Of a stretch of 64,000 bases of DNA, positions 25,786 to 26,123 are shown piece after piece. The DNA is taken from NCBI RefSeq assembly GCF_900090305.1, contig NZ_LT607751.1, positions 2,542,001 to 2,606,000 on the forward strand, in the 5' to 3' direction. This DNA comes from Micromonospora siamensis (lineage in GTDB: Bacteria; Actinomycetota; Actinomycetes; Mycobacteriales; Micromonosporaceae). Below the pieces are notes generated by a model that worked only from the letters and a program-made list of their open reading frames with translations, did not search any database and was not told where the DNA came from. The position numbers and the translations under genes are program-made. The stretch's first letter is position 1; the number at the start of each line of letters is the position of its first letter.

Positions 25786-25879
25786 CGGAGAGGGCAGGAT
25801 TCGAACCTGCGTGGGTCGCGGACGACCCGGCCGGACCGCGTGGGTCCGGTCCCCGGTGGGCCACTACGGGCACCTCTCC
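25786..25879 (-). tRNA. tRNA-Ser-like RNA, copy A (non-decoding)
   Basis: 94 nt. The acceptor is GGAGAGG/CCUCUCC with discriminator G, and a CCA is encoded directly after it (25785-25783). D-stem CCCG/CGGG has a loop containing AGUGG. The anticodon arm is CCGGAC/GUCCGG (6 bp, extendable to 7) around CCACGCG, with no U33. The variable arm is GGGUCG/CGACCC with a UCCG loop; T-arm GCAGG-UUCGAAU-CCUGC. It differs from copies B and C by one base (25841), in the apical loop. Serine identity elements are present but no normal anticodon loop. As the array is read it is the last copy, nearest the kinase gene. Confidence 0.75.
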
Positions 25880-25907
25880 TGGGTGGTGCGGGTGGTGCGG
25901 TGGTTCG

Positions 25908-26001
25908 CGGAGAGGGCAGGATTCGAACCTGCGTGGGTCGCGGACGACCCGGCCGGACCGCGAGGGTCCGGTCCCCGGTGGGCCACTACGGGCACCTCTC
26001 C
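25908..26001 (-). tRNA. tRNA-Ser-like RNA, copy B (non-decoding)
   Basis: Identical in sequence to copy C over 94 nt. The apical loop reads CCUCGCG, so a formal anticodon would be UCG, but position 33 is C rather than the near-universal U and the stem is one or two pairs too long. CCA is not encoded (CGA follows the discriminator), so it would have to be added after processing. Confidence 0.75.
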
Positions 26002-26029
26002 TGGGTGGTGCGGGTGGTGCGGTGGTTCG

Positions 26030-26123
26030 CGGAGAGGGCAGGATTCGAACCTGCGTGGGTCGCGGACGACCCGGCCGGACCGCGAGGGTCCGGTCCCCGG
26101 TGGGCCACTACGGGCACCTCTCC
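26030..26123 (-). tRNA. tRNA-Ser-like RNA, copy C (non-decoding)
   Basis: First copy in the direction of transcription, about 49 nt after the predicted start of the SARP-box promoter at 26179-26221. All helices (acceptor 7 bp, D 4 bp plus, anticodon 6-7 bp, variable arm 6 bp, T 5 bp) are fully Watson-Crick. The perfect T-loop and the variable arm argue for a real class II tRNA fold, not a decayed pseudogene. Confidence 0.75.

Follow-up and report, generated by a model that had tools for sequence, protein, structure and literature searches.

The window analysed here, a stretch of 64,000 nucleotides from Micromonospora siamensis, contains on its minus strand a tandem array of three tRNA-like genes (25786-26123), which heads a pair of vlmJ- and vlmK-like genes and faces a vlmA-like gene (Table 1). 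The first-pass annotation had described three tandem genes of 94 nt with a period of 122 bp and one base difference, and number, coordinates, length and period were all borne out: copy 1 departs by a single base from copies 2 and 3, which have the same sequence. In the DNA of copy 1, CCA follows directly after G73. The class II tRNA fold was recovered as well, with a 7-bp acceptor stem, a 4-bp D stem, a 6-bp variable arm and a 5-bp T stem, and the serine identity elements listed at that stage (G1-C72, G2-C71, A3-U70, G73, C11-G24 and the 6-bp variable arm) are all present. The D loop consists of 9 nt, AGUGGCCCA, and the T stem carries the loop UUCGAAU. With the long variable arm, G73, G1-C72 and G2-C71, the RNAs of the window share features of tRNA-Ser; the 5-bp anticodon stem, 7-nt loop and U33 of a canonical tRNA-Ser were not identified in any of the copies. 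The anticodon arm had been called abnormal, and this was confirmed, but in another form than first drawn: the minimum-free-energy (MFE) structure has a 7-bp stem and a 5-nt loop, CUCGC or CACGC, and the arm of 6 bp with a 7-nt loop and C33 represents an alternative drawing. In ARAGORN, all three copies come out as 'tRNA-???', and the predicted anticodon, ccct or ccca, has four bases. A scan for a sigma-70-like promoter or a terminator near the array identified none.

Table 1. Features of the azoxy region in the window (R1, covariance model of the RNA family described in the text)
Feature	Position	Strand	Remarks
SARP-type regulator (BTAD)	22190..23209	+	PF03704; relatives in 10 of 18 loci that encode a close relative of VlmA
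VlmK-like MmgE/PrpD dehydratase	23297..24781	-	PF03972/PF19305
VlmJ-like kinase (DAGK_cat/YegS_C)	24785..25738	-	PF00781/PF19279; directly downstream of the array
Ser-tRNA-like gene, copy 1, predicted to be anticodon-less	25786..25879	-	R1 97.6 bits
Ser-tRNA-like gene, copy 2, predicted to be anticodon-less	25908..26001	-	R1 98.1 bits; identical to copy 3
Ser-tRNA-like gene, copy 3, predicted to be anticodon-less	26030..26123	-	R1 98.1 bits; transcribed first
VlmA-like aminoacyl-tRNA:hydroxylamine transferase	26415..27410	+	PF09924 (DUF2156) 5.9e-63 on the longer ORF 26214-27410; divergent from the array
R2-like/ferritin-like oxidase, VlmB candidate	52659..53792	-	NCBIfam R2-like oxidase 1.2e-8, weak, below cut-off
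Flavin reductase, VlmR-like	53656..54231	-	PF01613
Conserved 164-aa protein, candidate for VlmO from its position alone	54316..54810	-	No Pfam/NCBIfam match

Over the array, all Rfam matches stay below the gathering score of their family. The Rfam tRNA model RF00005 gives no match at gathering score at the copies of the window or at the RNA copies of the loci L004, L005, L018 and L020, and the array copies are absent from its list for the own genome (E<=0.001). The best match below the threshold is tRNA-Sec (RF01852), which scores 29.5-30.5 bits where 47 are required. Like the RNAs described here, tRNA-Sec is of class II, and it is charged with serine by seryl-tRNA synthetase (SerRS); however, the copies of the window have no UCA anticodon loop, and, set against tRNA-Sec, they possess a 7-bp acceptor stem and a 5-bp T stem. 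An identity as tRNA-Sec was rejected on the basis of the score of 30.5 bits, below the cut-off of 47, and the missing UCA loop. For the host genome (6.25 Mb, a single contig), a DNA search revealed no array copies other than these three. Four canonical tRNA-Ser genes (CGA, GCU, UGA and GGA) are present in it, which score 47-58 bits with R1, and one SerRS was identified by PF02403 (56 bits), without a second one.

The array had been placed beside a DUF2156 aminoacyl-tRNA transferase in a probable azoxy cluster, which is supported by the Pfam matches of VlmA, VlmJ and VlmK type that adjoin it. In the passages of PMC9379638 on azoxy clusters, PF09924 for VlmA, the pair PF19279/PF03972 for VlmJ/VlmK, and the SerRS domain PF02403 are named as characteristic features. 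The window contains the PF09924 transferase together with VlmJ (PF19279) and VlmK (PF03972); a cluster SerRS (VlmL), as expected for a valanimycin-type cluster, is not present in the window genome. The VlmA of the window is 98% identical to a VlmA from Micromonospora mirobrigensis. For the VlmB candidate no Pfam match was obtained, and its homologue in locus L259 shows a weak AurF match below the cut-off. Relatives of the VlmB candidate, the flavin reductase and the conserved 164-aa protein sit together in related clusters. Among the window ORFs scanned by Pfam, which were part of all ORFs, no N-hydroxylase VlmH was recognised. At 34294-35397 a fatty-acid-desaturase-like diiron protein is encoded, relatives of which (46-49% identity) are found right beside vlmA in L013 and L016, and this protein could be a candidate stand-in for the missing VlmH. 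Fatty-acid and PKS-type genes are also present in the window.

On each side of the azoxy region, at 18957-19221 and at 61509-61668, lie tRNA-Gly(GCC) and tRNA-Val(GAC) genes. Their Rfam scores agree between the two sides, which gives the cluster the look of an island bounded by a tRNA gene duplication. A TIR-NB-ARC-TPR protein encoded at 19278-21842 adjoins the cluster.

Distribution of the RNA and its linkage to VlmA

Eighteen loci encoding a close relative of VlmA were examined, and in seven of them the RNA was identified inside the stretch covered. An alignment of ten sequences (A1) was used to build the covariance model R1, which gave 79-98 bits on 12 copies from the window and those loci. 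A search of 17 further whole genomes that encode a close relative of VlmA gave RNAs of at least 76 bits in 14, while G308, G311 and G312 (the genomes of L013, L016 and L017) contain none of at least 70 bits despite the presence of VlmA, VlmJ and VlmK. The absence of such arrays from all related clusters had been set beforehand as a result that would speak against the first-pass annotation; the presence in 14 of 17 genomes is the opposite outcome, and two family-wide samples agree with it. Among 300 genomes of the Micromonosporaceae, 23 matches to R1 of at least 72 bits were obtained in 13 genomes, and the next match below, at 59.7 bits, is a canonical tRNA-Ser. In a second family (394 genomes), the RNA was detected in 43 genomes at E<=1e-9, with many tandem arrays. 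This family is that of G301, and its assignment to the Streptomycetaceae follows from the Streptomyces tendae locus L006 in G301. A class-wide sample revealed the RNA in 5 of 394 genomes, which comprise the own genome, three with matches at contig positions of genomes already counted, and G988 from a further family. The large genome searches were run with stricter filters, by which some weak matches are lost and divergent members may be missed. The RNA represents a family that is wanting in Rfam and is widespread beyond the window genome.

In G988 (L255), three tandem copies lie near SerRS and flavin reductase/oxidase genes, and no VlmA was identified in the 40 kb examined around them. Many dispersed copies are present in some Kitasatospora genomes and in one genome of the family of the window. 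Intact copies away from VlmA amount to 11 in G303 (L114-L123) and to four in G040 (L098-L101), with almost no neighbour genes in common, and scattered copies away from VlmA were also seen in G307 (L124-L126).

The RNA is closely linked to VlmA. At E<=1e-60, VlmA was identified in 18 of the 300 Micromonosporaceae genomes, and all 13 carriers of the RNA are among them; in the second family, VlmA is present in 64 of the 394 genomes and in 41 of the 43 RNA carriers. The hypergeometric probabilities for this linkage are 4.4e-19 (300 genomes) and 1.3e-36 (394 genomes), values which are uncorrected for the kinship of the genomes. The two RNA carriers without VlmA at this threshold are G357 and G390. 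In G390 (L253-L254), two copies are arranged in tandem and three are present in the genome, and no VlmA was found in the about 40 kb examined. When the genomes are ranked by the score of their VlmA against the VlmA of the window, the first 35 all carry the RNA, followed by 6 of the remaining 29. The linkage extends to position. A copy lies within about 25 kb of vlmA in 12 of the 13 Micromonosporaceae carriers, the exception being G040. For the second family, distances cover 42 of the 43 carriers (G357 was left out), and a copy is located within 30 kb of vlmA in 37 and within 2 kb in 24 of them. In 22 of these 24 cases the copy is divergent from vlmA and upstream of it, with a median gap of about 204 bp. 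The recurrence of the array beside the same gene in other genomes is far above chance.

In a tree of 98 VlmA proteins, a single clade of 68 (SH-aLRT 92, from a quick search without bootstrap) includes every one of the 59 VlmA that have an RNA nearby; the remainder of the clade consists of six with the RNA elsewhere in the genome and three without it. These three (L013, L016 and L017) form one subclade, and their lack of the RNA probably goes back to one loss. Outside the clade are 30 VlmA, 28 of which are from genomes without the RNA and two of which (G301b and G376b) are paralogues from RNA-bearing genomes with no RNA nearby. Two changes on the tree are needed when the eight 'RNA elsewhere' entries are set aside, and eight when these are counted as lacking a nearby RNA, compared to a mean of 30.9 for shuffled labels. 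Two changes are most simply read as one gain and one loss. In the tree, L006, L008 and L012 were omitted as the same genes as G301, G303 and G307, and L010, L018 and L020 are represented by G305, G019 and G043; the second VlmA paralogues of G336, G692 and G555 were also omitted. The label 'near' for G314 and G304 assumes that contigs C51 and C138 are those of L019 and L009. It was shown in this way that the RNA is co-inherited with one VlmA clade and with azoxy clusters. The RNA is not a requirement of VlmA-type chemistry in general, because the VlmA-type clusters outside the RNA clade (28 entries) do without it.

Loss of the decoding loop and conservation of the tRNA body

The statistics of the family are based on 111 copies, reduced to 85 distinct RNAs, from 70 chosen loci; the loci left out include L137, L140 and L141, which coincide with L114, L124 and L127, and L018, L020 and L094, which coincide with L102, L096/L097 and L004. 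In the MFE structures, the loop of the anticodon arm has 4 nt in 58 RNAs, 3 nt in 10, 5 nt in 10 and 6 nt in 4, and single RNAs have a loop of 7 nt, a loop of 8 nt or no arm. UUCG, UCCG, GCAA and GAAA are among the loops. A strict canonical arm, with 5 bp, a 7-nt loop and U33, can be drawn for 3 of the 85. Under a loose criterion, with one mismatch and a free register, a 7-nt loop with U33 is possible in 27 of the 85 compared to 8 of 8 canonical tRNA-Ser. The first-pass annotation had stated that the RNAs look unable to decode, and with 58 of the 85 distinct relatives ending this arm in a tetraloop, the case is stronger than it was at first. The stem pairs of the arm vary between members with the pairing kept, in a class that was selected for pairing. 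Segments covering the arm are more stably folded than their dinucleotide-shuffled versions (mean z about -3.0 for 35 non-redundant segments), with a mild bias in that the segments were cut at predicted hairpins. At L020 (9719-9795), a copy of 77 nt beside a full one is devoid of the 5' half and the loop of the anticodon arm and has no anticodon arm.

The remainder of the molecule is highly conserved. G73, U8 and the T loop TTCRAAT are present in all 85 distinct RNAs, and the GG of the D loop is in register in 84. The last 25 nt, comprising the T arm and the acceptor, are on average 97% identical between distinct members. An acceptor mismatch, GGATAGG/CCTCTCC, occurs in six distinct sequences. 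The invariance of the acceptor rests on ARAGORN, a general T-loop scan and model hits, R1 having been built from those same sequences. By these predicted structures, the anticodon arm is shown to be a closed hairpin offering no usable anticodon, with the acceptor, D and T arms and the long variable arm intact.

A further difference to the host tRNA-Ser is found in the T stem, where all 85 distinct RNAs contain A51-U63 and the four host tRNA-Ser contain G51-C63. In the passages of PMC4052509 on elongation factor binding, G51-C63 is described as strong and A51-U63 as weak for EF-Tu, the latter being present in the non-proteinogenic tRNA-Gly of S. aureus used in cell-wall synthesis. The RNAs are therefore likely to bind EF-Tu weakly and in this way to evade the translation factor. 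The RNAs lack two further characteristics of the S. aureus tRNAs, namely A49-U65 and a replacement of G18G19; G49 and the GG of the D loop are kept.

Predicted serine charging, proposed function and known systems

According to the relevant part of PMC9976931, the serine identity of a tRNA resides mainly in the variable arm and not in the anticodon, with contributions from G73 and pairs of the acceptor. Serine as the amino acid of the RNA is supported by the class II shape, by G73 and by a cluster-linked SerRS in relatives, which suggest that the RNA can be charged with it. A SerRS with the PF02403 domain was located no more than 40 kb from VlmA in 26 of 52 RNA-bearing genomes compared to 0 of 28 genomes without the RNA (Fisher 6.5e-7), a count that spans 80 of the 82 VlmA-bearing genomes (G000 and G134 were left out). 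In the other 26 of the 52, a nearby SerRS is absent by PF02403, and at least one was missed by this domain, since that of G043 was seen by tblastn. PF02403 is the N-terminal, tRNA-binding domain, and it scores 27-47 bits on the nearby SerRS in 22 of the 26 genomes and 56-88 bits in the other four, compared to about 65-93 bits on the farther SerRS of the same 26 genomes. Aligned over most of their length, five cluster SerRS share 35-37% identity with the housekeeping enzyme. We infer that the tRNA-binding arm of the cluster SerRS has changed, which would fit an altered tRNA partner. The window genome has no second SerRS, and therefore the housekeeping enzyme must be assumed to charge the RNA there. 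Since the anticodon is not read by SerRS, such charging is plausible.

The first-pass proposal of dedicated Ser-tRNA donors is supported. From these data the RNAs are most probably private serine donors for the neighbouring VlmA-type transferase, and the lack of an anticodon, together with a probably weak binding to EF-Tu, would keep them out of translation. In the proposed pathway, the array would be transcribed and provided with CCA, and the RNA would then be serylated, as suggested by its class II shape, G73 and the cluster-linked SerRS of relatives, and in the window genome by the single housekeeping SerRS. The charged RNA would be excluded from the ribosome, for which the loss of the decoding loop and the A51-U63 pair speak. 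Finally, VlmA would transfer serine to a hydroxylamine, giving an O-seryl ester that is converted to the azoxy group, a reaction established for VlmA of valanimycin. We further lean towards a broader reading, in which SerRS, anticodon-less tRNA and transferase have co-evolved into a tRNA system wholly apart from the genetic code, whose origin would coincide with that of the serine branch of azoxy biosynthesis, and which would belong to the valanimycin pathway itself.

It is very improbable that the genes encode tRNAs which do decode, by an unusual anticodon that is extended or has four bases, such as frameshift suppressors for a gene of the cluster. The anticodon ccct or ccca called by ARAGORN would agree with such a role, and the bldA-like control of clusters by a tRNA in Streptomyces provides a model for it. 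However, MFE loops of 3-6 nt in 82 of 85 relatives, stable tetraloops like UUCG and GCAA included, the copy without the 5' half of the arm at L020 and the lack of any conserved anticodon argue against decoding, and all serine codons are already covered by the host tRNA-Ser genes by the usual wobble. A related question is whether the family represents decayed tRNA-Ser copies, being att-site fragments or pseudogenes of mobile elements. tRNA genes are common integration sites, and the dispersed Kitasatospora copies and the truncated copy of L020 look like turnover; single dispersed copies could have decayed. For the family as a whole, conservation speaks against decay, since stem pairs differ between members with the pairing kept, the anticodon-arm segments fold better than shuffles, the last 25 nt are nearly identical, and place and orientation are conserved; as an account of the family, decay is hardly credible.

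Alternatively, the RNAs might be serylated for another acceptor, or might regulate the cluster, for example as a decoy, without being a substrate of VlmA. The array of the window lies in the gap between vlmA and the divergently oriented vlmJK pair, which it heads; regulatory RNAs are found at such sites, and the copies dispersed far from VlmA would also agree with such a function. Yet a near-invariant acceptor and T arm together with a freely varying anticodon arm is expected of a substrate of a transferase or a synthetase, SerRS genes co-occur with the RNA, and the RNA tracks one VlmA clade, with none near the out-of-clade paralogues G301b and G376b, so that this alternative is considered unlikely. 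A role as a mere leader of vlmA was rejected because the RNA is located 12-25 kb from vlmA in several clusters.

If the RNAs are private serine donors, a chargeable, non-decoding RNA would be a direct answer to the question how azoxy pathways obtain serine without competing with protein synthesis. The RNAs would constitute a bacterial tRNA family that has no anticodon and has kept the rest of the tRNA. The RNA would also serve as a marker for the mining of serine-type azoxy clusters, having been missed by the Rfam tRNA model at gathering score where this was tested, and orthogonal tRNA/synthetase tools could be developed from it. The S. aureus tRNA-Gly is a precedent for tRNAs set aside for a transferase; for an anticodon-less tRNA belonging to a biosynthetic cluster, no precedent was found in the open-access literature. 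In this literature, as covered by titles and the starts of abstracts, neither a tRNA gene in an azoxy cluster nor an anticodon-less bacterial tRNA family was identified.

In review passages on valanimycin, VlmA transfers serine from Ser-tRNA-Ser to a hydroxylamine, giving an O-seryl ester which is rearranged to the azoxy group. The donor is given as Ser-tRNA-Ser or seryl-tRNA in the valanimycin passages of PMC4052509, PMC9379638, PMC12945691 and PMC11705231, and a dedicated tRNA does not appear in these passages. How Ser-tRNA is diverted from translation is stated as unknown in the passage of PMC4052509. The cluster of the window resembles the valanimycin pathway in its VlmA-, VlmJ-, VlmK- and VlmR-type genes and in the predicted transfer of serine from Ser-tRNA to a hydroxylamine. 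It differs in that the valanimycin cluster contains the SerRS VlmL, whereas the window genome has no second SerRS; the window also has fatty-acid and PKS-type genes.

The genome G484, which we take to be that of Kitasatospora setae KM-6054, contains two VlmA clusters, both with SerRS, VlmJ and VlmK, and with RNA arrays of two and five copies. Its VlmA was returned by a protein search as 'Putative VlmA homolog', [Kitasatospora]. The first cluster additionally encodes an acyl-CoA-dehydrogenase-like VlmH candidate, a flavin reductase and a pyridoxal decarboxylase, and in the valanimycin-type cluster two RNA copies are located about 40 bp from the VlmJ match. Characterised valanimycin enzymes are placed in K. 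setae in the corresponding passage of PMC11705231. The gene content of the first cluster fits valanimycin, and it is by gene content that this cluster would be taken as the published one.

Animal mitochondria, too, have natural tRNAs in which an arm is missing or reduced. In abstracts on these, it is the D or T arm that is lost, and such tRNAs still decode, whereas the family described here loses the anticodon end. Allo-tRNAs and other unusual cloverleaves have acceptor/T-stem lengths of 8/4 or 9/3, from which the RNAs of the window differ with their 7-bp acceptor stem and 5-bp T stem. The tRNA-Gly that serves FemXAB in S. aureus is not known to belong to a biosynthetic cluster. In the relevant passages of PMC4052509, it is regarded as reserved for a Fem/GNAT-type transferase and carries A51-U63, in which it resembles the RNAs of the window. 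As given in the corresponding part of PMC8007984, the non-proteinogenic tRNA-Gly is charged by the cognate synthetase and keeps its UCC anticodon. In contrast, the RNAs of the window have no recognisable anticodon, keep GG18-19 and are sited in azoxy clusters.
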